Below, one piece after another: positions 16,546-64,000 of a stretch of DNA of 64,000 nucleotides (positions within the stretch are counted from its first letter, which is position 1; every line of letters starts with the position of its first letter). The notes beneath the pieces were generated by a model, which saw nothing but the letters and a program-made list of their open reading frames with translations, made no database searches and was not told where the DNA came from. The stretch comes from Thuidium tamariscinum (taxonomy: Eukaryota > Streptophyta > Bryopsida > Hypnales > Thuidiaceae): assembly GCA_947034885.2 (NCBI GenBank), contig OX344749.2, positions 51,923,682 through 51,987,681 of the forward strand, read 5' to 3'. Both the position numbers and the translations under genes were made by a program.

Positions 16546-16599
16546 GGTCTTTTCTAATGCTTGAAAAGCTTACTTTGCTTTGTGACTCCAATCGAGTTT

Positions 16600-17865: not shown

Positions 17866-17869
17866 GTTG

Positions 17870-20085: not shown

Positions 20086-20109
20086 TATAAAAATTCCACA
20101 CTTTTTATG

Positions 20110-20545: not shown

Positions 20546-20599
20546 AAAGACATAATCCTTCTTTTCTTTGGGGATTTTTCTCTTGCTTGGTTAAAGGCT

Positions 20600-26147: not shown

Positions 26148-26400
26148 GACTCTTCCAATTTCAATCATAGACTAAGTTGTTTCTTGTTCACTACTTCCTA
26201 CTTTCTTGTTCACTACTTTGGGACATGTGTCATGATCTTATTGGGTCCAACCTTGAAATGGAAGAAAGAACACATTCCAAGCTTTGGTTGAAAATATATT
26301 TTGGTGTTGGTTGAAAATAGATGCACTTTACAAGTTGGAGGTTGGTCCTTGGTTAAGAATGGGTATGTCTACCTTAAAACCTTTGATTTTGTCATAGAAT
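26148..26400 (+). repeat. Dispersed repeat, decayed copy (partner at 49,384-49,640)
   Basis: Aligns in order with the 49.4-kb copy: GACTCTTCCAATT, CAATCATAGACTAAGT, GGGACATGTGTCATGATCTT and CAACCTTGAAATGGAAGAAA. Where the other copy is GC-rich, this one tends to carry T for C and A for G. Confidence 0.8.
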
Positions 26401-37640: not shown

Positions 37641-39749
37641 CTTCAGTAGGTCTTTAATATCGTTGTACTAAATCATTTGTTATTGAATTTAGTATAGTTC
37701 AGTTTCCTCGTTTGAACCTTTTCCCCCGATTCCCCTTCCTCTGTAATATGGTGAAGCTTTGACTTTGTTGGTCCCCAAGTACTTAGATTTTTGTATTAGA
37801 AACAAAACTACAACGCAGCTTTGACCTTTAAGTCTTATAGAAACCTCTTCAGGCTTCAAAATAGTTCAAAATTCATTCCCAAGTTGAGTGGCAAATGTTT
37901 AGCTTCCAAAACATTGACCATCAAGTCAAAGTTTAATTGCCAAAATTTAGTATCTACAAAGAAAGCATCTCCAAATTATCTTGCTAACACCCTTAGTTGA
38001 CTATCCAATTATTTTAAGTCTAGCCCATTTGTTTTGTTTTTACTCAAAATCACAAATCCAATTTTAAAAAACAAAAAAACAAAAAATCAAGCTTGCAAAC
38101 TAACCTCCAAGGTCTACTTGTAACACTAGACCCCAAGGCTCAATTGGGTCTAGATTCTAGGATCAATCAAGGACCTAGAAGTTCAAGACAATCAAGCAAA
38201 GAGTTGAGATCTAGAGAATTCAGGTCCAAAATAAAATACAAACAATATTCAAAATGATCTCTCTCAAAATATAAGTAGGCCTAAGAGAATTGAAGTATAA
38301 AGAATCAGGTGTCTAAGTAGTAGACTAGAAAAGGGAAAGGAAATACAAAAATATATACAATATACAATCCGTAAGGTCAAAACTAGTTTATATTAAAAAA
38401 AAAAATTTAAAAGGTTGAAACGAGGTGCATACAACTTACCAATTGAAGTATACCCATATTACACATATATCTCCTTGAAGTACCTTGAAGCAACAGACAC
38501 CCTTAAGTGACTTCCAAAGTCTTGCCATAGTTCAAGAAAAGAGAAATTAGAGATTCCTAAGCAAACGCCTTGGATTAAAAGAATGTAGTAGTGTGTCATA
38601 CATGATTGGAAAGCTCTTAAGTAGATGCTTTGAATCGTTTAATGAACTCATGATTTGGATTGGTTGACTAAAAATTATAGCTTTTCAAAGTTGAGTATAT
38701 CTCAATGGCGCTTGGATATTTAAGGACTAGGAATAGAGGGTGTCAATAAATCCTTAACCTTGAAGTGCTTTGATGTCCATATTTTGGACGATGAACAAAG
38801 GGCTTCAAGGCACTGCTTCATCTAATTAACTTTGCATTTGTCAAATGTAACACTTGAATCTAGAAAAGACAACCTTCCTTAATTACCAAATTCATTAAAT
38901 TCTGGTAAATGATATATCTATACAAAGCCATAAGCGAAAATGTACAAAAATTCTAAAAAAGGATTGAGACGTTTCAGGGTTAAGAAAATATAGAACAGAG
39001 TATATCATTGGAAATCTATGAACACAAAAAGTTAGAGTGACAAGCATTAGAAGGCCTTAAGTCATAAAACATAGTCAAGGTAAAAGGCATGACGCTACTC
39101 CTAGTGAATCCAAATCTTTGGAGGGCTACAATTTTGTGACAAATTATCCAAATGGAACAAGTGAGCGGTCCAATGGCATCTATTTGTTGCATACATATCC
39201 AAAAGGACTTGCATATAAGATTTGAGATACTAGTTGCACATTTAAGCCATTTTGAAGTTCAAGAGTTCAAATGATATTATAATTTGGTGAATTCTGTTAG
39301 GAACTGCTTCCAAAACCAAAGTGGATTTTGAAAGTTTTTTCAAACCACAAGGAAAGGGGGCTACCTAATAATATAGAAAGTATTATAGCAAGAATTGGTC
39401 TACTTTTTCATTTCTTTTTGGAACCTTAACAAGCCCTAATGTTCTTAGGTTGGTGAATTTGTTGGTGAAACTTTACCAATGGGTTCAAGGCACTATAGGA
39501 CACGTGCATGTATTCCATGGCACTAGGATTTGATGACATAATTTGCCTTGGCAAAACGCTAATTCTCTAGCTACAACCACATTCAGCCTAAAATATGAAG
39601 AGATTTAATATTATCAAAAGTAAGATGTATCATGTCAACACAAAACAAATGCACTATATGTTGCTTGAAAAATCACTCTATATTCATAAATATGAGGTTT
39701 TCTACATCATATGTATAAATTCCATGAATCAATACATATAATAAATCAA

Positions 39750-43915: not shown

Positions 43916-44795
43916 TTTACCCCTAAAGGACCAAGGCGCATTTTATTTTGTCAAAATAGAAATTTTAGGTAGGTAAGTGTGACCAGATATTTCCATATTT
44001 TTAGCCCAAACTTTGATAAAAGGTGTAGACAAGGAATATCTTTAAGACCCAAAAATTTTATAACTTTTGACTACATGCTTAAAAAGTTATTGTGCGATAA
44101 GTTGTTTCTTTTTCAACTCGGGCAATTTGTGCAAATTAGAAAAAATTATGTTTTTCAAAAACAAGAATTTGAAATTATTTTTCTAAGATTCATATATACA
44201 CAAAAATCTTTGAATCATTCCATTTTGATAAATGAGTTATGGAATCTCTTTTCTAAAAATAAACTTTGAAGACCTTTATTTAACTCAATTTTAAATATTT
44301 TTGGAAGAAAATAAAAACATTGGGTGTAGATTGTTTATTACAACATTTGAACCATTAGGATTGGCATTTTTCAATTTCATAACTAAATATTGAACAATTT
44401 AGTATTTTGAATCATTCTCTATTTCCTTCTACTTATTATTTTTTTCCTAAATGTTGTACAATCCCAAATGATCTCAAAATTTTTAACTATACAGTTAACT
44501 TGCCTTAAAGAATGAATCCAAAGGAGCACAACCATTTTGGACAATTTTTCATACAATTGTAATCTTGTAAAACGCAAGTTTCCATTTTCATGCAAGGCTA
44601 GAAAAAGGATTTTGGTCAACTCAAACACTAATATCTTGTAATCCACAAGGTGGGAATTTTTGAAATTTCTCCCCGTCTTCTCCAACTAGCATACTACAAG
44701 CCCCTATAGTTACATGTATCTAATTTTTTTTTTAAATTCTGGTACTTGTGTTAGAAATGGCAGTTTTGGAGCATTTGGGGTGAAAATGAAGGTCT
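43916..44795 (-). mobile_element. TTAA-family element, inverted orientation, one end lost
   Basis: Begins TTTACCCCTAAAGGACC, the reverse complement of the right end of the copy at 47,613-48,535. Shared downstream blocks are GGTAGGTA, a GCCCAAA-TTTGAT segment and AGGAATATC. The far end stops near 44,795, after AAATGGCAGTTTTGGAGCATTT, short of the expected terminus. Confidence 0.7.
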
Positions 44796-44977
44796 CCTTC
44801 CTCTCGAATAATCAACACCTTCCACGTACTCTAGCCAGGGGAAAGAGAGGACCGAGATATGATGTTCCAACTTCGGTTCATGCAATTGTTCTCTGGTAAC
44901 GGCACGTTCCCAAACTTACAGCGATGATCACCAGTGATGATATTGCTGGCATTACAAGAAACTGGGCAAGCAGCCTC

Positions 44978-45907
44978 TTAACTCCTAAAGGACCACGGCC
45001 GTTTTTCAACCCAAAACCACTCAAAACTGTCATTTCTGTTTCATTCATCCATGAAAAACAAAAAAACTAAAATTTTAGAATCTAACCATAGGATCTTGTA
45101 CTTTACTTAACTAAGATCATGTGGTGAAATTTTCATGAAGTTTGACCGTATAGATAGGAAGATATGAGCATTCAAAGTTGGAAAACAAAGTTTTCTTAAA
45201 CTCTAGTTTGCAACTTCAAATGACTTTGTCCTCCATTTATGTAATTTTTTTGCACTACAGACCTTGAATTTAAATTTTTTTTCTATTGAGAAATTGAGCT
45301 AAGAGCTTAGGAAAAAAAATTCACAAAATAAAGACTTTTTTTTCATTCTTAAAAAAATTGTCAAGTAGATGTAGGTCCAAGATTGAAAGAAAAACTAAAT
45401 TGCAAATATCTCATAGATGGAATTGAAACACAATAATCCCAATGGTGAGATTGTTCTAGCAAACAAAATCAACCTTGCCCAACAATTTTTTTTGAAAAAT
45501 TGTGAAAATTGCATTCACAAATGAATCCTATAAGTTATTTTTTCAAGAAGATGCTTAGATTGCCCGAAAAATAAGATTGTTCATAACTTTCACATTACTA
45601 ATCCAAATGGAATGAATCAAAGCTTCACTTGTAGACAAAAATAAAATCTATAAGAAAATTAATTAATTAATTAATTTTGAAGTTTTTATAGATTTTTTTT
45701 CTGCCCGGCGACATGAAAATTATGTTTAAGATGGCATAACTTTTGCTCCTGGTCACCAATTGAAAAAATAATAATATTCCCACAGAGCTAATCAGTTTTT
45801 CTATCTTATGTGAAAATTTCAAGAAAATTCATTAAAAATTGAAGTCACAAGTACCTACCCGAATTCTTAAAGTCCCCCGAGGGGACTCTTGATCCTTTAG
45901 GGGTTAA
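44978..45907 (+). mobile_element. TTAA-family element, complete, 930 bp (subfamily A)
   Basis: TTAACTCCTAAAGGACC at the left and GATCCTTTAGGGGTTAA at the right. TTAA borders with CCC-type ends are what piggyBac transposons show, but TTAA is itself a palindrome, so it may be part of the terminal repeat rather than a target duplication. A second inverted motif, CCCCCGAGGGG, lies inside the right end. Non-coding. A TTAA-type tetranucleotide run lies inside at about 45,658-45,677. Confidence 0.8.
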
Positions 45908-46142
45908 GTAAGGCAAGGGTAGGGAAATATGGTCTACCAAAGCAATCCAGTGGAGCCGCCAATGAGGAAGTACTTTGTTGCTATAAATAGTAAGGAAGGA
46001 AGGAAGTAATTTCCTAACCCAACCAATCCTTCCTTCACAGCAAACAAAACCCTTGCAGGAATTGCACCATGAACTGAAGAAGAACATTCATTTCTTTTAA
46101 ATAAAAATAAAAATAAATAAAAATAAATAGATAGGTAGAACA
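45908..46142 (+). other. Promoter-like fragment with TATA box and A-rich tail
   Basis: GC-richer island between two TTAA-family elements. CTATAAATAG at about 45,980 is a good plant TATA box, followed by GAAG-rich leader-like sequence. It ends in an A-rich AAAT run (about 46,097-46,130). No ORF follows. It may be a remnant of a retroelement LTR or a retroposed transcript. Confidence 0.35.
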
Positions 46143-47432
46143 TTAACCCCTCAAGGTTTTCACCAAAACTGCTCTCAAATTGTCATTTCTAGAACAACTA
46201 TCAAATTTTAGAAAAAAATATTTTTGGAATAATATATTGTAGGATCTTTTAGTGCAGTCACTACTCACTAGTTTGAGAGCATGTAGAAAAAATTTCAGAA
46301 AATTCTGCCGTGTAGATTGCAAGATATTAAGGTAGAAGCACTTGTAACCATCAGAATAAGCAATTCAATAGAGTTAAAGGTCTCTTTTTCTAAAAAAAAA
46401 TATTTTTTCAGCATTAGCAACTGAAAATTATGAATTAAAAAAAAACTAGAAATTTTGAACAAGGCATTTAATTTCTACGAATTTTTGAAGTAAAACTGAC
46501 TAGGGCACCCTGTATTGCACTCTAGTAAATCTACCTTGATTCTCACAACAAAATCTAAAAAATTCAAAGTTTACCAATCAAAATTAAAAATGGATGTCAA
46601 TTTCGAGGTACTCTTGAAGACAATTTAAGGGCACTCTACTTCCCAAATTATGGGTGCAGTAACCGTTATGGATGCTACTAATTAAGTGTTTGAAGTTACA
46701 AAAATCCTTTTTTAACCACTGTGAAAATCCAGGCAGCTGCACTTCAAAGGGGCACATTTGTATGAAAAAATGTCCAAAATGATTGCAACTCTTTAGATTC
46801 ATTCTTCAAGTCAAGTTAGCTACTTGCTTGAAAATTTTCAAATCATTTGGAATGTACAACATGTACAAAAAAAATAGTAAGTAGAAAGAGGTAAAGAATG
46901 ATTCAAAATACTAAATTGTTAACAATTAATTTATTAAATTAAAAAATTCCAATCCTAATGGTTTTAATGTTGTAATAAACAATCTACATCTAAAGTTTTT
47001 ATTTTTTCAAAAATATTAAAAATTGAATTAAATAAAGGACTTCAAAGTTTACTTTAGAGTAGACATTCCATAATTTCCTACAAACTACCCACAAACTAAA
47101 ACTCCTCATAATTTTCATCTCATTAATCTAAATGGCATGATTCAAAGCTTCCCTTGTCTTTATAAATCTAGATAATATGTTTCAAATTTTTATTTCTTAA
47201 AAAGGTTTTTTTTGGAGAAGTTCTTTGAGTTTCCTAGACTGCTTGCCGATCAACAAAAATCACATATCATGCAATAACTTTTTAACCATGTAGTCAAAAG
47301 TTATGAAAGTTGTTGGGCCTTAAAGATTACTCCTTGGGCACATGTTTTGTGAAAAATTCAAAAAAATTCAAAAAAAACCCAACTCCATCTGTAGTAAGTT
47401 GCCCAAAATCGCTATGTTGCTAAAGGGGTTAA
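46143..47432 (+). mobile_element. TTAA-family element, complete, 1290 bp (subfamily B)
   Basis: Left end TTAACCCCTCAAGG, right end TAAAGGGGTTAA. Body blocks match 58,253-59,208, for example ACCATGTAGTCAAAAGTTATG and CCTTGGGCACATG. Longer than its relatives. Non-coding. Confidence 0.8.
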
Positions 47433-47612
47433 TATACTTATATGGGGTCACATTTCAATAACTTACTCTCAATGGGTTGATCCAACGCTATAAATTGGAC
47501 ACCACACAATGTACCCAAAAGTGGCATACCACTCGTTGCCCCACCCACCCCCGAAATTTCCTAACTATTGATTAAAAATTAAAACCCCCATTAATGTGGT
47601 TGATTTGATCTC

Positions 47613-48535
47613 TTAAGTTCTTTGACTGTATTCATTCCAACAATGGTCAAAAAATTGCCATTTTTAGTACTCATACCAATTTTTTTAAACATTTTTTAAT
47701 TTGTAACCATAGGATCTCATATTAAATTGGTTTGTAAACATGTCTAAAAAATTTCACAGTTTTTCACCATGTAGATTGCAAGATATTTGCATTTGAATGC
47801 TCAAAAATCTTTTTTCTTATTGTACAGAAAACAATGTAATTGCACTTTAGAAGGCAAAAATCATATGAAAAATGGTCCAAAATGGTTGTGCCTCTTTGGA
47901 TTCATTGTTAAGGCCAAGTAGGGTACTTAGGATTAAAATTTTCAACTTGTTTAGAATTGTATTGTACAATATGATATAGGAAAAAAGTAATAAGTAAAAA
48001 GAAGTAGCAAATGATTCAAAATACAAAATTGTTAAGAATTTATTTATGGAATTGAAAATGTCAATTCGAATGGTTACAAAGTTGTAATAAATCATTTACA
48101 TCTATGATTTTATTTTTTTCAAAAAATATTGAAAATTGAGTAAAACAAAAGACTTCAAAATTATTTGACTGTAAACAATCTATAATTGCAGGCAAATAAA
48201 GAAACCTCATAAGTTTTGACTCATTGATCAAAATGGAATGATTCAAAGTATTTCATAAAGACTTAAATGAACAAAACTAATTTCAAATTTTCATTTTTGA
48301 AAAAAGTAATTTTTTTCAATTTGTCCAAACTGCCCTCTCACAAAAAAGTAACACGTTAGGCCATAAATTTTGACTCGTATTTCTAAATGTCTTGATTTTT
48401 AGTACACATGAAAGATATTCCTCATCCCTACCTTCTATTAAAATTTGGGCAAAAAATATCAAAAACTCCAATCACATGTACCTGCCTGAAATTGCAATGT
48501 GGCCAAATTTAGCAATCTAGTCCTTTAGGGGTTAA
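47613..48535 (+). mobile_element. TTAA-family element, 923 bp, left end decayed
   Basis: Right end TCCTTTAGGGGTTAA is intact. The left end TTAAGTTCTTTGACTG is a mutated version of TTAACCCCTAAAGG...TTTTTGAC. The body contains ACCATAGGATCT and TTTGTAAACATGT, shared with 58,253-59,208. Non-coding. Confidence 0.72.
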
Positions 48536-48783
48536 TACTACATACATATTGATTATTGAATATTGTATATATTTGGAGTACAAATACGGAATATGGAATA
48601 AATGATAAATACAAAAATACTAAATATGTACTAAATACATTGATATAATTTATGTCGTTTGGTGAACAAACTGCTCATCAAAAATACAAGTATGCATAGA
48701 GGTTGTGTTAACAAAATAAAAATTTGGGTATGTGGAATAATACATTAAAAAGTGAGCCTCATTGAGTTAACATTGAGTTTATA

Positions 48784-48824
48784 CCACTTTTCAACACATT
48801 GTACAACAACGTGTTGAAAAGTGG
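48784..48824. repeat. Short perfect hairpin
   Basis: Arms of 14 bp, CCACTTTTCAACAC and its exact complement, around a 13-nt loop. Isolated in AT-rich DNA with no gene near it. Confidence 0.85.
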
Positions 48825-48925
48825 CAGTAACTGCCATTCCATTTTCCCATTGCCTTCAATGATAAATGAAGACATGATTATGAGATATCATCATTGTGTA
48901 TATACATGACAACATCACTAACTCA

Positions 48926-49083
48926 AGGTAAACTACCCCATTCTAAATCAAATGGGAGAAAGATCATTGAAGGCTAAATTATATTAGTGGTGTACATTTT
49001 AAAATTTGTACATACATCACTAACATAATTTGGCCCACAATGGGCTTTCTCAATCCCATTTAGTCTAGAATGGAGAAGTTACT
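48926..49083. repeat. Small foldback element
   Basis: Inverted arms share CCCATTCTA, AAATGGGA and CTAAATTATATTAGTG (imperfect) around ATTTTAAAAT. About 158 bp, with no clear target duplication. Confidence 0.6.
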
Positions 49084-49383
49084 TTATATGGGGTTAAATA
49101 AAATGGCATGTTTTCAAATTGAAATAGAAATTTGGTAGTGGTATAGATAGACTTGTGTTATGATTTTCTTCTTGCTAACTTGAGTCAAATTGCTACATAA
49201 ATTATGGGTTGCATAGTTGATACAAAGTAAAGTTTTTAAACAAAATAGTAAGAGAATTAGCTAGATTTTATACATGAAGTCAAGATGTGTAGCCTCTTTA
49301 GACCTAGGCATTATTGAAGTATTGCCTAAGTAGAAGCAAAGTTCTTATCATAGACTAAGTGCTTTTGTGTTCCAATCATATCT

Positions 49384-49700
49384 AGACTCTTCCAATTCCA
49401 ATCATAGACTAAGTACTTTCCTGTTCACTATTTCTTGCTTTCTTGCTCCTTAGTTTGGGACATGTGTCATGATCTTATTGGGACCAACCTTGAAATGGAA
49501 GAAAAAACACAGTGGAAGCTTTGGTTGGAAATATGATCTTGCCTTGATTGCAACTAGCTGCACTCTCCAAGTCGGATATGGGTCCCTGGCCAGGAATGGG
49601 TCCCTCTACCTTGGCAACCTCCCTTTCCCAACAGCTTGGTTTTTTTTTTGGGAAACACATGGACAATTTCCATTGCCAAGGCAACTGTACACAGCACCCG
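49384..49700 (+). repeat. Dispersed repeat, better preserved copy (partner at 26,148-26,400)
   Basis: Same order of blocks as the 26.1-kb copy but with C and G retained, for example GGGTCCCTGGCCAGGAATGG. Its end (CATGGACAATTTCCATTGCC) is also present in decayed form near 9,305. Three copies at different ages in one window. Confidence 0.8.
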
Positions 49701-50150
49701 AAGGCAAAAGCCTCGGCGAAGCATCATTTTGGTTTTGCATTTTCTTAAGCTGAGCCTACCCTAGCCCTCCAGCAACGGCACCTGGAACGGCGCTCCACTC
49801 GGCAGTTTGGCTTTTGGTGCCGTCCAGCCTCGCCCCGCAGTGCCCGTGTCCGCCCGTCCGTCCGTGGTGAGTCATCCGTCTCCCCGCCAAGCAGCCCTGT
49901 CCGCTGCAGATAGCGTTTGTTCGGGAAAGCAGGATAACGAACTGCCGTACCTTCGTCGCAGGGCACTTGGCGCGCCCAAGCACGGACGAGTGGACGCACG
50001 GGAGGAACGGAACGGATGGAGCTTGCGAGCAGACGGGCTTGGAGGCGGGCGGGGTCGGCTCAGGGCCGGTTCCCATGGGGGGCCTGGACGTCCAGGCAAG
50101 CCGGATTTCCAGGACCTGGAGGAGCCGTAGCGCTCCATTGGCACCTGTGG
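49701..50150. other. GC-rich island, no gene identified
   Basis: Abrupt rise in GC within AT-rich repeat DNA. Several overlapping ORFs on both strands are explained by the base composition and none looks like a protein. It may be a young repeat fragment or a promoter remnant. Confidence 0.45.
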
Positions 50151-50189
50151 TTTACTACTCCAAACTGAAAAGGTATTTACTGAAACCAT

Positions 50190-51000
50190 ATCATATCAAT
50201 TATATTAATTATTATTATTAATCTATATTAATTACTTTTATTAATGTATTATATTAATTTCTATTATTATAGTAAGTGTTATTATATTAATTTCTTATTA
50301 TAGTAAGTGCCAAAAATGGATATATTTTCCATGGAATTTTATTTTCATTTGAATCCGTAATAGGAATTGAAAATTCGCAAAATATTTTGTGCATGAGGAA
50401 CAAAACAATTATTAATTACTTCACTATAAATAAAAATATTATTCATGATTATTCAATGAACTTGATCATTTAATGGAAAATGAAAATATTTTTGAAAATT
50501 AATTGACATAATTAATTAATTCAGTGTTAACAAAAATATTATTGATTACAATTCCATTTAAATTTCTCTTTAATCCTTTATAGTAAACAGAAGTAGTATC
50601 AGTTAAAAAACCATTTATCAAAAACATTATTGACTAAACATCAAATGTATTATATTATTTACAAAAAATATATTTCAACGTTCCTTTACATATTGTAGAT
50701 TTTTAATTAATATTTACAATTATGTTAGAATTAATAAAAATAGTATTAATTATTAATCAATACTCATATTTCATTTTTAAATTAATGTTTATTAAATTTA
50801 ATAATTATTTAGTGTATTTGATTACATTTTGTATTTAGAAACATGTTGAGTTGAGGATAATTATGTTCATTTCAGAAAATTAAATTTTTTTTAGTCTACT
50901 TCATAATTTGCAGTATTTATATTAATATTTAAGCATGATTATTTCAGCAGTTATAAATAATTAATTATTATTATTATTCAAATATTTCAATATTTTCCTA
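50190..51000. other. Extremely AT-rich stretch, no gene
   Basis: Dominated by TTATTA, TTAATT and ATATTA runs. No structure beyond simple-sequence richness was seen. Confidence 0.6.
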
Positions 51001-51154
51001 TCCAATTGGGAGCCAAGCAAGGTAGCTAGCATAAACTCAAGGCACCCCATGTGAACAACAAAATTACTTTCAAGGTAATATGCAAAGGTAAGCACAGTAA
51101 CTTGTGCACCTGAACCAGCCTACAGTAGCACAATCCAGTTTATTGATTACTATA

Positions 51155-51310
51155 GTTGGAGGGTCCAGGGGGGGTCCAGGCCCTCCAGGTCTGTTTTAAA
51201 AATCAAACTGACCTGGTGGCTGGAGGGGGACCTGGACCTCCGACTAGACGTCCAGCTCCCCCATCCCCGCAATAGAACCCCCCTAGACCTCCCAGACTTG
51301 GAGGTCCAGG
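51155..51310. repeat. Cluster of GGTCCAGG / CCTGGACC motifs
   Basis: A GC-rich patch built from GGTCCAGG, CCTCCAGG, GGACCTGGACC and GACGTCCAG in both orientations around TTTTAAAAATC. A smaller cluster with CCTGGACGTCCAGG lies at about 50,082-50,125. Source unknown. Confidence 0.5.
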
Positions 51311-51689
51311 GCACGCGCTCTCACATGGCTCGGCAACCACCCCTGCCAAAGGCCGGTCTGCTCCAAGAAGGGGCACGGGCTCTACAAGGCAGGAGGCTCC
51401 ACCTCCTCAAATATACACATCGTGGACATGGACGTTTTTTATCTTCACAAGAAGGGATCAACAGTCAACACTGGAAGAGGTAGGCGGGTTTTGGGGCCCA
51501 ATGTGGTTTCCACCTCAAATATTCGCAACTAGTTCCACAAAGCTTCAAAAAATATGACATGATTGGCAATAAATGCCAATTTCTCTAGTCTTCTTAGGGA
51601 AATTTACTAAAAAACATTTGAAGAAATTTCACGTCCCCAAAATTCAATCACAACTCTTAGATGGGCGCTTTATAAATGGACTTCCTATC

Positions 51690-52430
51690 TTTACCCCTAA
51701 AAGCCCATTGTCCCCTCGGGGGACAATTTGGAGTTCGAGCAAGTTCTAATGACCTTAATTTTAAGTGAATTTTTTTGAAACTAATTATCTTTGTAGTAAT
51801 ATAATGTTTATTTCAATTGGTGCCCGAGAGCAAAAGTTATACCACAAAAACCCCAAATTTTAACTCAACAGGCAGAAAAATAAATCTTCAAAAACTTAAA
51901 ATAAATTTTTCTTATAGATTTTTATATCTTATAGATTATATTTTTGTCTACGTGTGAAGCTTTGATTCATTCCATTTGAATTAGTTATGTGAAGGTTATG
52001 AACAATCTTGTTTTTTAGGTAGTCTGAGCATCTTTTTGAAAAAATAACTTACAAGATTCATTTGTGAATGCAATTTTTCACAATTTTTCAAAAAGAATTG
52101 CTTCACAAGGTTAAATTTGATCCCATCTTAGAGCTATTAATTATTTAATTTTTCTTTCAATCTCAGACCTACCTATAATTAATAATTTTTTAAAGAATGA
52201 AAATCAAGTATTTTTTTTAAAAAAAATCCTAGACTTTCAACTCAATTCTTAAACACAAAAAAATTTAAATTCAAAGTCAAAAGTGCAAAAAATTTCAATA
52301 AATGGCAATCAAAGTCATCTGAAATTGCAGAACAGTGGTAAAAAAAATTCTTTTTTCCAACTTTGAATGCTCATATCTTCCAATCTATACAGTCAAACTT
52401 GATGAAATTTTATCAAAAAGTCATAATGTG
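51690..52430 (-). mobile_element. TTAA-family element, inverted and truncated (subfamily A)
   Basis: Begins TTTACCCCTAAAAGCC with CCCCTCGGGGGAC just inside, mirroring the right end of 44,978-45,907. The body follows that copy in reverse complement as far as TTTGAATGCTCATATCTTCC, then similarity is lost near 52,430. Confidence 0.7.
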
Positions 52431-52639
52431 TTAGTGTTGAAAAAGATGTTGAAATTTTATCAAAAACACACTTTGGAGGTGAAATTTGAATCCTAAACCT
52501 ACTCAAATGAACAATCTTTAAACTAAAAAGTGATTCAAAACCAACATGCAAGCACATTGGTGAAAAAATTTCATTCAAATGCTTTGAATTGTTTGCAAAA
52601 TGCCTTTGAAATGTAAAAGAAAAATAGGAAAAAAGGGTG

Positions 52640-53180
52640 CAGAAAACACATCTATGACTGCACCTCCTTGTACTAAAATGCTTCTCTATCATTCATAACT
52701 TCTTGGATTGATATGAAATTTTAGCCACACAAACTAGCCTAGAATTTGAAACTTTTTGAACAAAAATGATTAGAAACAAACATTGTATGAGAAAGAAACA
52801 AGCTACCAAAGTTCATTGTAATCCAAAAATGTCTAGCTTTTGAACTTTAAATTGCTTCCAAACATTCAAAATGTCTTGGATTGCCATGAAAATTTGACCA
52901 CAATAACTAGACTTATAGAGGAACATATTTCAATAAATTTTTATTGAAAGCAAACATTAGATGAAGGAGATACAAGCCTCCAAAGTTGCAGGCATCAACT
53001 GCAATTTAGTGAACTCAAAATGAACTTGTGAACTTTGATTGGCTCCGAAAACATTTTCACACCCATGATTGATCTGAAAATTTTATTATACAAACTAGAC
53101 TAGTATGTGCAACTTTTCCAATAAGTTTTTATTGAATTTGGACATTGGATGCAGAAGTTACAACACTTTGAATTGGACTA
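52640..53180. repeat. Degenerate tandem repeat, period about 170-190 bp
   Basis: Three diverged units start near 52,702, 52,875 and 53,064. Each carries a GGATTGxxATGAAAAT-like block, then AAACTAGxCTAG, then AAACATTxxATGxxxxxxxTACAA. Satellite-like but short. Confidence 0.55.
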
Positions 53181-53530
53181 CTAGACTATATCAAGACACT
53201 TTTTGTCCCCTTAAGAGATGAAGAGTTAAGATAAAAACACCTAAAATCACTTCTTTTGTACCCCTCTTATAATATGGGTAATGTAAATGATGATTTTTGG
53301 CATGGGAGAGTGGTAGAGACTTCAACATTAAGAGAGAAAAAATGAAAGATTTCAATGTGCTTGGTAGGTTTTTGACACTCATACAATACTTGATGAATTT
53401 TTAGAGTTGAAAGCACTTACACTAGAACATTGAATTGTCCTATTGGAGCATGTTAGAAAATGAAATTACTAATGGTCATAACTTTTTATGAGGAAGGAAT
53501 GTTTTTACCAATGATGTTTATGATGACTAT

Positions 53531-54273
53531 TTAACCCCTAAAGCCTTGAGTTGTGTTTTTTGGCAACATAAGTTTTTTGGGCAGCTCACTATGAATAGAA
53601 TTTTTATTTTTTTTCTTTGAAATTTTTACACAAGATGTGCCCAAGGAGTAGCTTTAAGGCCCAACAATTTTCATAACTTTTGACTTTGTGGGTAAAAAGT
53701 TATGGCATGATATGTTGTTTTCTTTACTCGGAGGGCAGCCTGGGCAGCTAAAAAAACTTCTTTAAGAAAACTCTTTTTTGAAAAATAAAATTTCAAATTT
53801 ATTCTTTAGGTTTTATAGACATGGGAATCTTTGTTTCATTCCATTTGGATTAAGGAGTCAAAAGTTATGAGGAATTTTAGTTTGCGAGTAGGTATGGAGT
53901 CTTTGAAAACCATACCTACCCGCAAATTAAAATTCCTCATAACTTTTGACTCCTTAATCCAAATGGAATGAAACAAAGATTTCCATGTCTGTGAAAACCT
54001 AAAAAATAAATTTGAAATTCCACTTCTTCTTTTTTTTAAATTTTAAAGAAGTTTTTTTAGCTGCCCGGGTTGCCCTCCAAGTAAAGAAAACAACATATCA
54101 TGCCATAACTTTTTATCCACAAAGTCAAAAGTTATGAAAATTGTTAGGCCTTAAAGCTACTCCTTGGGCACATCTTGTGTAAGAATTTCAAAGAAAAAAA
54201 AAACTCTATTCATAGTGAGTTGCCCAAAAAACTTATGTTGCCAAAAAACGCAGCTCAAGGCTTTAGGGGTTGA
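53531..54273. mobile_element. TTAA-family foldback, near-perfect palindrome of 743 bp
   Basis: Starts TTAACCCCTAAAGCC and ends GGCTTTAGGGGTTGA (one base changed from TTAA). Arms 53,531-53,897 and 53,910-54,273 pair almost throughout, with a loop of only 12 nt. Each arm equals the right-hand end of subfamily B elements such as 58,253-59,208, so this is an inverted duplication of one end. Non-coding. A transcript would fold into a stem of about 365 bp. Confidence 0.9.
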
Positions 54274-56919
54274 TCAAAATGACACAAGTACTTATATAAT
54301 GGATTAAAAAGTTATCATCCTTGTAAAAAGTCATAAAAATATATAAGTTTGTTTTCTAACAAGCACTAATGGGACAAATTACACTGAAAGGCTTCTCATA
54401 ACCCTATAATGTTATATGGAGATTTTAAGCCCATAACAAATTCAAAAAAATTGTTGCCAAAAGTAAGAGTACATTCTTCATTGACATTTTTTTCTTTAAA
54501 GATACCATCATAGGGACTTTCAATTAATTTGTTTGAGCACATTCTCCCTAAATTTTAGATTGAATCCACCATGTCCCTATTGATTGTACAGTCAATGAGC
54601 CTAAACTTCTAAAAGTATTTTTTTCCAACCCTTCCAAAAGGTGAAGTTTTTTCTTTCAACATATTTTAGAAAAAATACATACATTAAAAAAAAATTCAAA
54701 TTCATATTTAAATATATTTCAATTTAAGTAAATTGAAGGTGGTATTTGATGAAAGAAAAACTCAAATATGTAATATATTTGACAAGAAATTGAAAATTGT
54801 CAATCACAATGGTAAAGTTGTTTTAGTAAGAAATGCATATTCTATTAATGTTATTTTTTATTTAAGATTTTAAAAATTGAGTACAATAAACAACTTTGTT
54901 TTCTTTTGTCTTCATTGTCTTGCAAAATAAAATTCCTTCTTACATATTAGTTTGAATTGAATGGTTTAAAGGTTTCAAAATAGAAATTATCTACACAATC
55001 AAATAACCTCAATTAATTTCTATTTAAATTTTTTTTTGAATATTAAATTTGACATTGAATTCAAATAAACTCATGATTTGAAATGTTTATCTAAAATGAT
55101 GTGAAATGAAACTTCACATATAGGGTAAGATGATTATGAGTTCTCCTAAGGGTTCCATATTGAAAACATCAATAGATGAAGTCCACAGAAACTTTGCAAG
55201 TTCTCAAAAAGACCAAAGTAGGTTCTTTAGTCTTCAAAGGTGAAACCCACACCCTAAAAACACAAAATGATTTAACTTATTGGTTGCCTCATTAACCTCC
55301 TATTTGTTGCTCTTGAAAGCTTGCAGTGTTTTTAGGTGAATTAATGTGGTGAATATCGAGGGCCCAAAATAAATGTGGGGCAAAAAGAACATTAGCTATA
55401 TTGAATGGATATACCTTAAAGATTTTGCATTTGAAATTTCTTTTCACCTTCGACAACAAAGGTTATAGCATGAAATAATTCTCTATGAAATGTCATTGGA
55501 GTTACAAAGTGGCTTATAAATGGTTTTCAATTGAATATAGACGACAAAGAATTGCTACTTTCATCTATTCTTTATATAGAGACTTCTTTGAAATTTGTTT
55601 ACAATGGATGAGGGAAAAAATTCTTTAATTGGTTAATTCCTATATTACAAAAGACAATTTTTGGTAGTTCACAAATTATTTGAATAGCGTAAGTTTTAAG
55701 ACCATTAACTAGTTTAAAGTGCCATATAATGACTATTAAACCAATTATGGATAGATTGTTTGTGAAGCAAGATAAGAAAATAGAAAATGAAAAGTACCTT
55801 CAATGGAGTTGATGATTGCCTACAACTAGGTCAATACAATGTCTATATGGAGAGATCATTCTTTGTACCAACACATTATTAATTAATGATACTAAGTGGT
55901 ATGTTAAATTTAGATTTACATTTTGTTAACATTTATGTAACATTTAGTGTAATGTTATGTATAGTGTTATCAATGGAAACCGTGGATTGACATTGACAAT
56001 TAGTGTTGGTAATTTTCACTAGTAGTGTTGTTAACATACGGTATTATAGTTTGTAATTAGTGATGCAAATATTATTATTAGATCCTAAAAGACGTATACC
56101 TTATTTTCACAAAAAAAATCTTTATAATTATCATTTCTTGTGGAAAGGGTGACAAAGAAAAAAATATATTCTTTAGCATATTCAAACGTAAAATCTTGAA
56201 TCAAACTTGAGTGAGAATGTATGGAATTTTTTCCAAATTTTTTGACTATTAATGTAGATTGTAAGATATTCCTAGCTTCATCCTATAATACAAGTCTCTT
56301 TGTTTTACCATTTGTTCTAAACTACTTATCCCCTTTAGCAATATAATTTAGACCTAATTTTAGGATTGACAATCATAGTTTTTATTTTTGACATTAACTA
56401 ATGAAATGAAGTATAAGAAGTCTAGTTTATTATTCTATTTACATATCAAAAAATTCAAAAAATTGAATGTTTTTTTACCAAATTGAAGTTTATTTTGGTT
56501 AAATTGTGAAAGGCATTGAAATTTTCAATGAATTTATTGAATTCCAAATTGTTCTTGTGTAAGTCTAAATAGATAGAGTAGGTAAGGTTGTTGCATATAA
56601 AGTTTGTTTTTTCTATAAAACCTTTCCTTATTTATATGTAACAGTTTGTATGTAGTATAAACCTCCTACTTTTTCATCTTTCATTGATTACAATGAATAG
56701 CCACATTCACTTGTTTTTCATTTGAGATGGCACATTGAACATTCACTATAGAATCTTTTAATCATAACATGCATTAAAAATATTTGCTAAATCTTTCATA
56801 TTTTCTTTGCTACAAAGGAACTCTAGTCTTATGGAACAAAGGAAATATTAGTAATCAAAGTGAAAAGAAAAGATTTTTTGGCATCTTTTTACACAAGGTT
56901 TTCATATTTTGTATCCTTT
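54274..56919. other. AT-rich intergenic DNA, no gene seen
   Basis: No protein-like ORF and no repeat that I could pair within the window. Confidence 0.5.
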
Positions 56920-57815
56920 TTAATTCCTAATGGACTTAGGACTTTTTTTTAGCAAAAAACCACTCAAAATTGCCATTTCTATAGCAAAGAGTAAAATATT
57001 TGAATTAAAAAAAAATCTAACTATAAGATATTAGTCCTAATTAGAATGAAAATGTGTAGAAAAAATTTCAGAAACTTTGATCGCAAAGATTGCAAGATAT
57101 TTGCATTTAAAGTGGAAAAAATAAGTTTTTCACTACATTGTTGTACTAGATTATTTGACTTTGAATCTTCTTAACTTTAATTTTTGCACTGTAGAGTTTT
57201 GAGATTAAAATCTTTTTAGTGGGAGATTCAATTGAGTGTTTAGCAATTTTTTTTAAAAATTTCATTTAAAAAAAATTGTTGAATAGAAGTAAGTGTGAAA
57301 TAGAAGGAAAATCTAAATTATTAATATCACTAAGATGGAATTAAATTGTTCTAATCCCAATGGTGATATTCTTTTAGAAAGCAAACTAAATCATGTAGAA
57401 TTTTTTTTAAATTATAAAAATTGCAATTACAAATGAATTCTATAAGTTCTTTTTTCAAGAAGATGCTTAGATTGCTTCAAAATATAGATTGTCCATAACT
57501 TTTGCACAACTTATTCAAATGAAATAAATCAAAATCTTTCTACGTATACAAAAAATTAGTCTATGAAAAAAAAATTTATTCAAAATTTTCAAAATTTTCT
57601 TTGAAATCCAATCTCCTTTATTTTGAGCTTATTAAGGCATAACTTTTGTTTCCAAGTACCAATTTGGAAAAATAACTATATTTCCATGAATCGATTTAGT
57701 TATTCTATCTTCAATCAAAAAAAGTTTCAAGAAATCATATCATAGATTCAAATCATAGGTACTTGTATGATATCCTATTTGTCACCTAAGTGGACAATGG
57801 TCCTTGAGGGGTTAA
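56920..57815 (+). mobile_element. TTAA-family element, complete, 896 bp (subfamily A)
   Basis: Left end TTAATTCCTAATGGAC, right end GGTCCTTGAGGGGTTAA. The body matches 44,978-45,907 in order (CCACTCAAAA, CATTTCTA, AAGATTGCAAGATAT, TTTTTTCAAGAAGATGCTTAG). Non-coding. Confidence 0.8.
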
Positions 57816-58252
57816 CTTGAAATCATTTGCACTATAAAATTTTGAGTTTAATATTTGTATGGTAGAAAGTTGTAATGAAAATCTAGGAAAAAAATCATTT
57901 AAAAATAAATTTTCATTCTTAAAGCACCTTTTTAGTAAGAGTAGGGACATGATGGATGGAAAAATAAAATCTTTAACATTTCTAAAATGGAGTTGAAACA
58001 TGTTAATCTTGGTTGGGATATTGTTGTGGCAAATAATCTATACCCCATACAAGTTTTGTATTGACAATTTATTAAAAAGAAAATTTAATCCTATGCATTA
58101 TTTTTTCAAAAAGAAGTCTGCACTCACTTACAAAATTGAGTCATAAAAAATTATACATTACTACTACAAATAGAATGTATCAAAGCAATGTAATTATAAA
58201 TGTATTTACCAATTAAAATGAAACTTATAAGGGCAATTAAATTTCAAGTTTT

Positions 58253-59208
58253 TTAACCCCTAAAGGTTTTTGACTATGTTTTCACCAAAAATGCTCCAAA
58301 ACTGCCATTTCTAATACAAGTGCAATTTTTTTTTAAAGCACATTTTTGACTCATGTAACCATAGGATCTTGTAGTAAAGTGGTTTGTAAACATGTGGAAA
58401 AAATTTCAAAAACTTTCATTGTGTAGATTGCAAGATATAAGCATTTGAATTGACAAAAATTGTTTTTTTATCCCTGCAAAAATCTGGGAAGCTGCACTTC
58501 ACAAGGTCACATTTGTGTGAAAAAATTCAAAATGGTGGTTACTCTTTGAATTCTTACTTCAATGCAAGTTGGCTACATTCTCAAAAAATTTCAAACCATT
58601 TGAAATTGTACTACATATAGGAAAAAATAAGTAAGTCAAAAGAAATAAAAATGAGCCAAAATACTAAATTGTGAACATTTTATTCATGGAATTGAAAATT
58701 TTCAATCCCAATGGTTAAAATGTTGTAATAAACAATCTACACCTTCTGTTTTTATTTTTTTTCCAAAAATATAAAAAATTGAATTACATGAAGAATTTCA
58801 AACTTTTTTTGTACTGTAGAGATTCTGTAACTAGCCACAAACTACCCCAAACTCAAAATCTTCATAACTTTTGACTCATTGATCGGAATGGATTGATTCA
58901 AAGCTTTAGTTTTAGATTAAAAAATCTAGTAAACAAATTTCAAATTTCTATTTTTCTTAAAAGTAATTTTTGAAGAAGTTTTTTTATCTGCCTAGGCTCC
59001 CCGCCAAATTAGAAAAAAAAAAACATATCCTACCATAACTTTTTAACCATGTTGTCAAAAGTTATGAAAATTATTGGGCCTCAAAGCTACTCTTGGGGCA
59101 CATGTTGTATCAAAATTTTAAAGAAAAATAAATAAAGACTCCATCTATAGTGAGCTGCCCAAAAACTTTATGTTCTCAAAAAACGCAGTTTAGGGCTTTA
59201 GGGGTTAA
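58253..59208 (+). mobile_element. TTAA-family element, complete, 956 bp (subfamily B)
   Basis: Left end TTAACCCCTAAAGG, right end GGCTTTAGGGGTTAA. Both TTAA borders are intact, so this is the best-preserved representative. The body contains ACCATAGGATCTTGTAG and GTCAAAAGTTATGAAAATTA. Non-coding. Confidence 0.85.
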
Positions 59209-59425
59209 AAATTTTATTTTTGCCAACAGTAGATTATTATTTGTACTTAAAAGGGTACCATTTTTTCTTAATATCAAATAAAATAAAAATTGTACTCTAG
59301 AAAAGCTAGTACATTTTCTTACCTTGCAAAAACATTTTTGAAATGTTACAATAAAATTTGACATCATCAATACCTACCCAAAATCTTGGAAAACCCATTC
59401 CATGAATTTGACCCTTTAAGGGTTA
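59209..59425 (+). mobile_element. Right-end fragment of a TTAA-family element
   Basis: ATACCTACCCAAAATCTTGG and then TTTGACCCTTTAAGGGTTAG resemble the right end of subfamily A (GTACCTACCCGAATTCTTAA ... GGGGTTAA). It is the last AT-rich repeat before the GC-rich gene region. Confidence 0.55.
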
Positions 59426-61400
59426 GTGTAGTGCGAGATACATTCAAGAGCTTCGCACCGGTGCAAGAGCTAAGTAAGTTGCAGCAACCTCTCATTGCCA
59501 CCCTTGTCAAGTCCGCCCTCATGTACCCGTTTCAGCGGGGAAATGGGCACCGACCCCACAGGAACATGATGGGATTGTGAAAAGTGGTGCTGATGGATTG
59601 GTTCACCTTGATTGGCGTCCTTCGAGGTCAGGAATTTGAAAAGGTCCGCCAGACCCCTCGAGAACTTAGTATTTCCTCCGTGCTGCTGGCTGTGAAGAGG
59701 AATTATATCGACCGTTCGAGAACGTTGCAGTAGAACGCAGCACAGTTTCCTGTCGCTTTCCTTTTCACGAAACCAATGAAACGGATCGGAATTTCATTGC
59801 CGTTGATAAGAAGGAACCAAACAGAACAAAACCCACCTCAAAAACCCTCCGTCCCTCCCCATTAGGTTTCGAATTGAAGCGAGAGCTTCGGAAGGTCTTC
59901 GGAGATGTCACGTCTGGAAGCAGAGCCGTCGGAGGCTTTCGGAAGGAGGGGCAACTGCTGTCTATCGCTGAGAAAGTGAGAAAGGTGGCCTGATTGGGCT
60001 CATGAGGACCTTCATTCTTTCCCTTGTTGTGCCTGTACCATTCAATGAACCTGCCACCGTGTTTGATATAATTGTGATAAGTGAAAGCGGGTATCTGCCA
60101 AGGGCAGCAGGGGACAGGTGCCGAGGGCATGCGTGGACCCCTTCTGCAGACGCTCCTGATCGATTCAATCTAACTTAACTTATTCGATCAGTGCACTGAG
60201 GAAAGTGAAAACAGAATCACTCAGCAGCTCGCATCAGCTCGCATCATGTGCAGTACAGCACAGGGCTACAGGAGCTCGGGTAGCCACCGCGGAGCTGTAT
60301 TTAACTTATTAGGTCCAGATGGAAGTCCAGACCGTTTCGTTTCCCGTCTGACAGCAAACATATAAATATAGAAAGGGGGGATTATAAAACGATTTTGCGT
60401 GGGGACAGTTGGGCTATCCCAACGAACTTATCAGCAGAAAGGAGAAAAGAGCTGTGTTGACACGACACAAATAGCGATCTGGCAGTAGTGCAGGAAACAG
60501 TATTAGCTGCTGACGAAGACAGAGGGATGGACAGGAGGTGTCGGACGGGCAACTTAGAACGCTTCTGTTGGTCGAGCACTGGCTTAGCCTAAGTTAGCTT
60601 ACTGTAACTTAAAGCCTCACTGTACTTCGCATCGATCATATGATGGTGATGCTCAATCAGGACGGCGCAGTTGGTGCCAAACCCTGTTCAACCGTCTTGC
60701 CGCATATGCCAGGATACAAACAACACGGAACAACGTACCCTAAATATATATGCCTACACTTATGAATGCCGCTTCTGTCAGTCCGGGCTTCTCGAATGCC
60801 AGACGGCCCAGACGCATCAAACAAGAGGCCAGTCATGCCCTAGGGTAACTGACAACAGCGAGAGGAGAGGGAATGACGAGCACACAAGGACAGCAGGGCA
60901 GGGCTCACAAGTTCGAGGCGGATTCTGTCTACTAACACACTGTGTGCAAGCACTCATTCCATAGGCCCAAGGTCGACAAGCGGAGAAAGAAGTTGAAATC
61001 ATGAGAAAGTCCTGATCAAGAGAGAGAGCCAACCTTTCACTTATTGCAGGTAATCCCATGCGTTGGTGGATTTACCAAGGACACTAGGGCATACGGTACT
61101 ACACTAGACAGTAGTAGTAGCAGTACTCACTCAAGCCGCATGCTGCTGCGCCAGATCGCTTACACACATCAGCCAGCAGAGAGGAAGATTATGCTTACAA
61201 AACGAGAGATTCCAGGCGCCCGCATGCGTCATTGGCGCTGAGCTAGCTAGCTTGCTAATTGCGGACGGAGGGGAGATGATCGGCAGCGGGCGCGGCGCGA
61301 GGCAATCACACATCTTCATTAAAATGCGAGGCGGGCACAGTCCACAATTTCAGAAGTCGCGTAGTGTCCGCCAGGGCTCGTCGTCGTCCTCGTGGCCAGC
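59426..61400. other. GC-rich DNA downstream of the kinase gene, no gene identified
   Basis: Composition is gene-like, but no ORF resembles a known protein and I could not assemble a spliced model. It may hold the 3' UTR of the minus-strand gene at its right end and a non-coding transcript. Checked on both strands. Confidence 0.4.
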
Positions 61401-62944
61401 TCATGAGGCAGTCGCCGGCGGAGAAGGGAAATGGGTTACCAAGGCAGGGATGGAGTCCAGATTGGCCAGCCAGTGCAAGACGGCGTCGACGGCGGCTGGC
61501 GTGGTCACGGCCGTCGTGTCCACCATCATCTTCTTGGTGTCGCCCGTGTTGTACTGGAAGCACCCGGCGTACGCAACCAGGATCTTCTCGATGTCCGACC
61601 ATTGCGCCGGCTTGTGCCATCGCTTCGACGGCGGCGCCGTTGGCCCTCCCAACCCCACGTCAAGCACCACCGGCTGCACCACCCCCGACACCACATCCTG
61701 TCCACAGTCAGTCTCCGTCGCTCGTCTTCCATTCCTCCCCCCCGTCAGTCACCCTTCTTCCTTCCTACGACTCCAGCAGCAATTCGAATCCCGCATATGC
61801 ATCGGAGTCGGAGCTTTACAAGAATTATCTATAAGTATGTACCTTCCGGTTGAATTGGCCCACCAGAGGTGAACCCCACCTGGCCACGAGAATTAGCCCC
61901 AACCACCTGACCTAACACACCGTCCCATTGCCCCATATGGATGCTTTGGCTGAGGGATTGGTTCGCACTCACCTTCTGAGATTCCTTGTTGGTCTCGACG
62001 CCCAGTTTTTGAGCCGCTACTTGAGGAAGATCGGTGTTATCCAATTTCATGCCCCTCCGACGCACCGGCGGATCCCTCTCCACGTAGTAGAAATCGTGCT
62101 CATCCCTGTTGAACAATAACACAATCAGGCTCTCTGCAGACTTGTTCCTCGGCCAATTCCCACTGGGAGTTCGCCAAGCAACGCACTTGCCCAATTTCGT
62201 CCCCGAGAGATGATTAGAACACGGAGACCCTGTTCGGAGCCTCTCGCTACGGTGCAGCCCTCGTATTGTGAATAGTTCTATGCACAAGAACAGCTAACTC
62301 ACGCAACGACTACGCTCGTCCCGTAACCAGATAAGCAGATGCACAAGACGATCATGCAAGAGCAGCTACCTAGGCAGCAGATGATTGGAGTGGTGAGAGG
62401 GAGGGAATTATGAGAAGGATGGTGAATCGATTGATTACCCCAGGCTAGGTCGGGTAGTGAAGGTTTGGGACTCCTCCATGCCGAGCTCCGCGCGGCTCTC
62501 GAGGCGCTCCTTCCAGATCTGGTTATCGCCAGAATAGCATTCCACAATGACGAGCAAGGCGCCATACTGCTGGGCGAGCTGCACGGCGCGGTCGAAAAGC
62601 CCCGGCCGCTCCAGTGGGCTGTCCACCACGACGTCCAGGCCCAGCTCAAGCTGCGTCTGGGTGACACGCCACATGACCACGTACGAGAGCGTGTTGAGCT
62701 TGTGCGACGTGAAGTTGAAGGTCTTGCTCTCACACGTGCACGCCATGACACATGGGCACTCCAGGTCCATGCTGCAGTCGCGGATGTCGTCTTTGTCGAC
62801 CACGGGGCAATGCAGCGCCGACGCGATGCCGCGCGACACCGTTGTCTTCCCGCACCCAGGATGCCCCTTCATCGCGATCAGCAGCGGTCGCCGCCTTTGC
62901 GCCTCCACTCCGCTGCTGCTGCTCCGTACGCTGAGGTCCGCCAT
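61401..62944 (-). CDS. P-loop NTPase, kinase-like (AAA_33 / zeta-kinase fold), 3 exons
   Basis: Minus-strand exons 62,944-62,439, 62,105-61,973 and 61,697-61,401 join in frame to 311 aa with GT-AG introns. Walker A is GHPGCGKTT at residues 27-35, followed by DKDD at 50-53 in the position of a substrate-binding acidic motif. A central VVDSPLERPGLFDRA segment and a C-terminal WHKPAQWSDIEKIL...VVDTTA-like segment match plant P-loop proteins of the AAA_33 type. These are soluble and predicted to bind ATP and phosphorylate a small molecule or nucleotide; the substrate is not known. The ATG at 62,944 is the first on the strand before the Walker A. The middle exon (DEHDFYYVERDPPV...) is placed on splice sites and frame rather than on family match, so it is the least certain part. 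Confidence 0.8.
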
Positions 62945-64000
62945 CGCTACGACGCCCAGCCGCACTACGCCTGTGACTGCCTAGACTCCCCCTGGCGCTC
63001 GGAATGGCAAGCGCGGGGTGGCTCAAGCTGTGGCACCCTCAAATCGCGGCGCTCACTCGTGAAGTACCCTTTGGTCGAAGGACCCTAGACTTGTTCCGGC
63101 GGGGGCGGGGGGGAGGTGGGCGAAGCCGGAGTCCACGAATGCGAGCCTGCCTGCCCGGGGGACTGGTTGCTTGGTCCCCAACGCAAAGTGGAATAACTAG
63201 GAGCGCGCTCAGTGGCCAGAAGCGGCGGAGATGAATCCAGAGAGACGGTTACCAGCTGTTGACGAATTCCGAAAGCCCGGCGCACCCGGGGGCGGAATTA
63301 TTCCCTAATCAATCTGGATAATTCCAAATCCTGCGAGCAGCGCAGCGCAGAGCCGAGCACAGGAGCGCCGGCCCCAAGTGCAGGTTCACTCTTCCACATA
63401 ACTTACCGACATGACGACAGAGTGCCTGCCTGCCTGCCTGCCGCCTGCCTTTTCTGCCAGGCGTGGCCCTCGCGGGGCAGGCGGGCGACAGGACGTGAAG
63501 GCAAGGGCGCGACTGGAGGGACGGAGGGCCTGGAATCCTTGGATGGAGGGCCCGTCCCGTCCGCCGGGCTGCCTGCCGTGTACAGTAATTCTCCTCATCA
63601 TAGATTCCGCCCCGCCCGCCCTTCCGCCCGCCCAAAGCCTCATCTCATCCTCTCGGTCATGGCGCCCTCGCCGCATGCAAGCTCCACCAGAGTACCAGCC
63701 CAGAGTGACCAGTCCAGACGACTCAAGACACCCCCGCCCCTCCGCGACAGCACACGCCGTCCTCGCGCCAGTTGCAAGCCCTGCCCCCCTGCCCTGCCCC
63801 TGCCCTGCCTTGATGATCCTGTCCGCCCACCCCATTCTGGCGAGGAAATGAGGAAACTGAGGAAATCAGGAGGCCGTGGAAGAGTTACCAGCATCAGCTT
63901 AAAAGTTTATGGTTGGAAGGAGAATTGGAAGGCGATTTGGAGTTTAATTTGTTCAAGGCAAAGTGAATAAACATGTCCTTCAACCCAAGAATCCAGTTAC
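62945..64000 (-). promoter_or_regulatory. Upstream region of the P-loop kinase gene
   Basis: GC-rich, with a CTGC-type simple repeat at about 63,425-63,450. Long ORFs occur in all frames because of low stop density and have skewed Pro/Arg/Ala composition, so I do not call them genes. No TATA box was recognised. A divergent gene beginning beyond the window edge is possible. Confidence 0.4.

Follow-up and report, generated by a model that had tools for sequence, protein, structure and literature searches.

The repeats that carry the 14-base end TTAACCCCTAAAGG in a 64,000-bp stretch of the genome of the moss Thuidium tamariscinum (the window, positions 51923682-51987681 of contig C1 in a 363.2-Mb assembly of 19 contigs) are, with a probability of about 0.96, non-autonomous members of the piggyBac superfamily, similar to miniature inverted-repeat transposable elements (MITEs) and mobilized by the transposase of longer coding elements with the same ends. 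This transposase would recognize TTAACCCCTAAAGG together with the adjoining sequence, cut the element out, and join it to a new TTAA, which would then flank the element on both sides. We infer that the transposases of the coding elements move the non-coding copies and that the excision is precise. A first-pass annotation of the window had read the TTAA borders and CCC-type termini as a sign of piggyBac, and this is now supported by empty insertion sites and by elements with the same ends that encode PF13843, the piggyBac transposase domain.

Repeat Ends and Target-Site Profile

The chance level of TTAACCCCTAAAGG was tested by shuffles and first-order Markov simulations of the window. With up to three mismatches, the window contains 21 matches to this end, compared to 7.3 expected, a number that was reached in 0 of 100 shuffles. 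Seventeen of the 21 are ends of the family, and the remaining four (7434, 26953, 38970, and 59408 on the plus strand) are not. With up to two mismatches to the 13-base core, 16 ends are found, against a mean of 2.74 and a maximum of 8 in 200 simulations, and five outward-facing pairs of ends are spaced at 500-1500 bp, where the simulations gave 0.03 on average and 1 at most. The copies resemble one another far beyond their ends and fall into two subfamilies, A and B. The proposed multicopy family bounded by TTAA, with ends of the form CCCCTAAAGG, is thus confirmed by the excess of matches over the shuffles, the pairing of the ends, and the likeness beyond them.

The end profile was built from 18 aligned window ends, namely the 17 matching ends and the decayed end at 47604, which was picked by its alignment to other copies. 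T, T, A, and A are conserved in 17, 16, 15, and 17 of the 18 ends, respectively, with a sharp edge at the TTAA. At the ten flanking positions outside it, the top base never occurs in more than 10 of the 18 ends, and the four positions inside it are C in 15, 15, 18, and 16 of them, giving CCC-type terminal inverted repeats; motif conventions for piggyBac ends that begin with CCC are found in parts of PMC10813416.

Two shorter targets were also considered, namely a 2-bp TA (Tc1/mariner) and a 3-bp TTA/TAA (PIF/Harbinger). Both are ruled out for symmetric ends because the outermost T is conserved (17/18) at left and right ends alike.

Copies in the Window and in the Genome

Subfamily A comprises the copies at 58253, 46143, 47604, and 43916 (inverted) and the palindromic copies at 13698/23279 and 53531, and subfamily B those at 44978, 56920, 51690 (inverted), and 23644 (Table 1). 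Six copies retain both ends and are 743-1290 bp long. The left and right ends of one copy agree over only ~14-20 bp, and in five of these six copies the two halves show no match to each other. The palindrome GTCCCCTCGGGGGAC is located ~20 bp inside the right end in two of three subfamily-B copies, with a degraded form in the third (57815). When 18 full-length copies fetched from the same genome are used as a library, 8,670 of the 64,000 bp of the window are covered.

The copies listed in the first-pass annotation are real, with some corrections of the coordinates; the left end of the one placed at 47,613 is decayed and lies at ~47,604, position 59,209 is not a start, and two fragments (57,816-58,186 and 54,788-54,896) were absent from that list. 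Its statement that no copy codes for anything is borne out, as no coding sequence was seen in the window copies and the longest stop-free run is 50-98 codons in the eight copies measured. Nor was a coding partner matched in the window, where open stretches of at least 55 codons were listed and eight frames were scanned against Pfam with no transposase among them. An Rfam scan of the window gave 0 matches.

The copies differ in age. The palindromic copy 13698/23279 is split by a long terminal repeat (LTR) retroelement at ~14,220-23,090, whose LTRs are 77% identical over 302 columns, and the copy must therefore be old. In contrast, the copy at 44978-45907 is 96.5% identical to a copy elsewhere in the genome (L015).

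Genome-wide, exact TTAACCCCTAAAGG occurs 8,526 times (4,286 + 4,240), compared to 0 + 2 for the reversed control pattern. Among the first 100 places listed on C1 there are 18 end pairs closer than 1 kb, spanning 704-939 bp, 16 of which lie at 915-939 bp, and the most alike pair among the fetched copies is 97.5% identical. A scan of viral contigs with the end pattern gave 0 matches. Two long end-to-end spans on C1 (L009 and L010) show no coding family member in their listed open frames. In L010, a copy adjoins frames that by eye resemble Copia gag.

Empty Sites

For the empty-site test, 150 bp of flank on each side of 26 elements (the 18 fetched copies, L010, and seven window copies) were joined around one TTAA, and the joined sites were compared with the window and the fetched sequences. 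Matches crossing the junction were obtained for six of them, namely L012, L013, L018, L022, L024, and window copy 56920. The best case is L022, a subfamily-A copy nested in a subfamily-B copy, for which 12 distinct unoccupied relatives align across the junction and carry one four-base site in place of the two TTAA (5 TTAA, 2 TTGA, and 5 TTCA). The seven closer relatives, 74-77% identical, account for the five TTAA, including window 57107-57110, and for the two TTGA. L018 has an unoccupied relative in L009 with a single TTAA. The flanks of 56920-57815 weakly match the interior of this same copy near 57,170 (118 bp at 69%, E 3.5e-5), likewise with one TTAA, as if it had been inserted into another subfamily-B copy. 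The joined site of L024 matched its own flank only.

Since one TTAA, or a sequence that differs from it by one base, is present in the unoccupied relatives, the TTAA is, judging from these alignments, duplicated on insertion. The check was positive at three sites (L022, L018, and, weakly, window 56920), and empty sites lacking a single TTAA, which the first-pass annotation had named as counterevidence, were not seen among the spanning sites, with L012 and L013 unreadable.

Coding piggyBac Elements

A genome search for PF13843 resulted in 659 first-look candidates; 116 were scored, all of which are over the curated cut-off, and 0 of 14 control genomes gave a match. Ten of the rows are equal in score and have a frame of 1,023 codons. 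The genome contains several diverged lineages of piggyBac transposase (loci L029-L040), some with near-identical copies, and the ends of five of them (I-V) were determined (Table 1). At 38970-38983 of the window (minus strand), the 14 bases TTAACCCTGAAACG are identical to one end of the lineage-I coding element L040.

Ten loci at which the profile match stops where that of lineage V does were selected for an end check, and their outer sequence was examined in 20 stretches and then in 5 further ones. Exact TTAACCCCTAAAGG is present at both ends in four of them and at one end in another one (Table 1). Elements with the ends of the window copies thus encode a piggyBac-family DDE transposase. A transposase of another kind was not seen between such ends, the genome having been searched for PF13843 only.

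The 891-residue frame of C7:15191397 matches PF13843 with E 1.8e-75, piggyBat (9c0f) with E 3.4e-22, and piggyBac (6x67) with E 6.7e-19. Its TIDEMM, TDNFFS, and RGVDVADQ align with the corresponding motifs of 6x67 and 9c0f. We take these three motifs to hold the three catalytic aspartates. The C-terminal tail of the frame is cysteine-rich by eye; its alignment to 9c0f and 6x67 is non-significant.

On three different contigs there are coding copies whose 3' sides are identical over 750-767 bp and whose 5' stretches, where compared, are 96-99% identical; the scored stretch contains one TAG in the C7 copy and is free of stops in the C3 and C9 copies. In lineage IV, copies at three places share 99.7-99.9% identity over 4.1 kb, but two of them are 7 kb apart and inverted, and may therefore represent one duplication. 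Such near-identity points to recent movement, and we carry it no further toward present activity.

A transposase-domain search for relatives retrieved 41 proteins among 5,461 candidates. The best of them (73-54% identity, top rows) are unnamed sequences from environmental samples or assemblies, and the four that have names come from animals and show 28-37% identity. In a midpoint-rooted tree of 47 of 50 sequences (three were dropped for coverage), the moss lineages cluster with their unnamed close relatives in a single group of 29 (local support 0.999), separate from the animal proteins that are named. The unnamed relatives may themselves come from mosses.

Link between Coding Elements and Window Copies

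Two coding elements match window copies at both ends. For C7:15191397 (7,251 bp), one end aligns with window 48535-48398 (80.4% over 138 bp, E 1.9e-30) and the other with 58499-58253 (72% over 250 bp, E 8e-29). For C7:17555611 (6,453 bp), the corresponding matches are to 45907-45813 (85.6% over 97 bp, E 6.7e-23) and 45180-44978 (69.7% over 211 bp, E 6e-17).

The ends of four coding elements were further compared with those of 21 oriented non-coding copies (four from the window, and the 17 fetched copies that remain when L012 is left out of the 18). The right ends of the coding A elements are 77.7% and 67.6% identical to subfamily A, compared to 55.2% and 50.7% to B, and those of the coding B elements are 65.3% and 68.5% identical to subfamily B, compared to 58.2% and 52.0% to A. 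The left ends agree with this pairing in three of the four. By the similarity of their right ends, then, the two non-coding subfamilies pair with two coding subgroups, and the earlier claim of at least two subfamilies is borne out.

A number of observations weigh against the assignment. Movement of the copies was not observed, and five of the ten checked coding loci have other ends, or no recognizable ends in the stretches fetched. The left end of C3:41119643 is slightly nearer to the other subfamily (51.3% identity to B, compared to 49.0% to A), and in the left-end tree the two subfamilies are not cleanly resolved. At the best empty site, that of L022, the five remoter relatives (67-70% identical) carry TTCA, and the junction matches of L012 and L013 are too diverged for the target site to be read. 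Finally, what is found of the copy interior in the four coding elements is confined to the edges and a few weak matches of 21-39 bp (E 3e-4 to 1e-3).

Because the interior is hardly present in these four elements, the non-coding copies are not simple deletions of them. The interiors of A and B are alike and in register (8 by 13 sequences gave 59 matches, the best with E 2.6e-16, and 0 when reversed), and by such comparisons the copies look like one old lineage of ~930 bp rather than fresh deletions of the four coding elements compared. A coding source of the shared interior may have been missed. One can speculate, at rather less than even odds, that the moss has a currently active piggyBac system, with near-identical, open-framed coding copies, in which the ends of this old ~930-bp lineage have repeatedly been re-matched to different transposase subgroups, its interior persisting. 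If so, the non-coding elements would be a long-lived, partner-switching parasite lineage and not a series of fresh deletions.

Alternative Explanations

The coding units could in principle be chance composites, in which a piggyBac gene with its own ends was inserted into, or became flanked by, unrelated TTAA repeats. Nested copies are common here, as shown by a subfamily-A copy inside a subfamily-B copy, but a nested insertion would leave the repeat interior in two halves, whereas most of it is missing. In addition, three coding loci on different contigs have near-identical 3' and 5' stretches that both stop at these ends, and must therefore have moved as units. We consider such composites very improbable.

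Even less probable is an assignment to Kolobok, another TTAA-targeting superfamily, whose transposase would then move the elements. According to the sections of PMC6004289 that describe them, Kolobok and the Xenopus T2-MITEs share the TTAA target found here, but Kolobok ends start with two purines (AG in the ten elements of the table in that paper), and the assignment is rejected because the ends here start with CC. Furthermore, PF13843 is encoded by elements with these ends; the search did not extend to Kolobok transposases. Sola3 targets TTAA, which is all that favors it, and it is equally far-fetched, since the coding elements with these ends encode the piggyBac domain, although Sola transposases were not searched for.

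Relation to Known Systems

The piggyBac elements are known mainly from animals and are widely used in genome engineering. The moss system shares the TTAA target, the CCC ends, and a DDE transposase of the same family with piggyBac of Trichoplusia ni (PDB 6x67/6x68) and piggyBat (PDB 9c0f), and differs from them in its coding elements of 5.1-7.9 kb with long N-terminal parts, in the distant protein similarity, and in its host. The non-coding copies are like the animal piggyBac-type MITEs mPok1 and mPok2 (Pokey family, Daphnia), which in the part of PMC4912750 concerned with them are non-coding with short terminal inverted repeats; unlike these, they reside in a moss, are ~930 bp long, have an interior hardly seen in the coding elements compared, and come with thousands of exact ends. 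They also resemble plant MITEs in being non-coding, of high copy number, and bounded by terminal inverted repeats, although the latter belong to other superfamilies.

As for plants, PiggyBac is listed among the angiosperm MITE superfamilies in a passage of one review (PMC10004981), a table of a fern genome paper gives 1,230 for PiggyBac (PMC6890710), and a survey table places it with the superfamilies that occur in every group examined (PMC4438587). Neither piggyBac nor TTAA is mentioned in the main text of a 2025 MITE survey covering 207 plant genomes (PMC12550479), and such elements may therefore be unclassified or misfiled in other plants. In a moss genome paper, both text matches to "piggyBac" are "piggybacking" (PMC10619864), and no title describing piggyBac elements in a moss was among the matches listed in the open-access literature. 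The kind of element is thus already known, and what is new is the moss host, the scale, and the paired coding and non-coding subfamilies. The latter offer a direct test of how non-autonomous elements track their transposase, and the open-framed, near-identical coding copies could supply plant-adapted TTAA transposases.

Table 1. Family Copies in the Window, Coding Lineages, and Coding Loci Checked for Their Ends
Feature	Position	Strand	Ends, matches, and remarks
Left half, palindromic subfamily-A copy, split by LTR retroelement	13698-14225		end TCAATCCCTAAAGG; arms 75% identical with both halves taken together; similar to 53531, 23279
Right half, same palindromic subfamily-A copy	23091-23279		exact TTAACCCCTAAAGG end on minus; 86% over 187 bp to L022
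Subfamily-B copy, second end lost	23644-24194	+	similarity to other copies
Inverted subfamily-A copy, far end lost	43916-44786	-	74% over 914 bp to L016
Complete subfamily-B copy, TTAA at both ends	44978-45907	+	96.5% over 932 bp to L015; both ends match coding element
Complete subfamily-A copy, extra stretch ~46,330-46,684	46143-47432	+	similarity to other copies
Complete subfamily-A copy, decayed left end	47604-48535	+	73% over 941 bp to L020; right end 80% over 138 bp to coding element
Inverted subfamily-B copy, far end lost	51690-52414	-	75% over 790 bp to L014
Palindromic copy, two subfamily-A right arms	53531-54273		arms 89.5% identical over 373 columns
Short interior fragment	54788-54896		match to fetched-copy library
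Complete subfamily-B copy	56920-57815	+	TTAA 57,107-57,110 is unoccupied relative of L022-filled site (empty-site alignment)
Subfamily-B interior fragment directly adjoining 56920-57815	57816-58186	+	similarity to other copies
Complete subfamily-A copy, TTAA at both ends	58253-59208	+	77% over 963 bp to L011; left end 72% over 250 bp to coding element
Weak fragment	59209-59426		decayed end CTAACCCTTAAAGG on minus at 59,426; 69% over 95 bp to L013, E 6e-5
Lineage I			5.1 kb; ends TTAACCCCTAAACGCCGG / TTAACCCTGAAACGCCGG
Lineage II			7.9 kb; TTAACCCTAGAAGGACG at both ends
Lineage III			5.4 kb; ends TTAACCCCTTAGGGCCG / TTAACCCTTTAGGGCCG
Lineage IV			5.6 kb; same 20 bases at both ends, TTAACCCTTAAATGACCCTG
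Lineage V			5.1 kb; ends TTAACCCCTAAATG / TTAACCCCTAAGTT
Coding locus	C7:12289142-12296905		exact TTAACCCCTAAAGG at both ends
Coding locus	C3:41119643-41127215		exact TTAACCCCTAAAGG at both ends
Coding locus	C9:16263599-16271393		exact TTAACCCCTAAAGG at both ends
Coding locus	C7:17555611-17562063		6,453 bp; exact TTAACCCCTAAAGG at both ends; transposase frame broken by stops
Coding locus	C7:15191397-15198647		7,251 bp; exact TTAACCCCTAAAGG at one end, TTAACCCCTAAAGT at other; 891-codon open frame
Coding locus	C2:44474707		lineage-V ends on both sides
Coding locus	C8:6591599		near match at 3' side only
Coding locus	C5:28979264		near match at 3' side only
Coding locus	C9:9405911		ends TTAACCCCAAAATG / TTAACCCCAGAATG
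Coding locus	C1:42573199		no such end in stretches fetched

Other Features of the Window

Beside the truncated copy 51690-52414, positions 52434-53229 hold another dispersed repeat, with 70% similarity (822 columns) to the sequence that lies beyond the end of a lineage-III coding element. At 27360-28070, inverted repeats whose 200-nt arms are 87% complementary form what is apparently a different fold-back repeat, and a 235-nt repeat is present in two copies, 82% identical, at 26141-26375 and 49378-49612. As to genes, 1633-3762 is a 709-codon open frame that contains leucine-rich repeats and the first part of a kinase domain, and 62435-62965 contains a P-loop kinase frame that is 88% identical to a Physcomitrium patens protein, its nearest named match.

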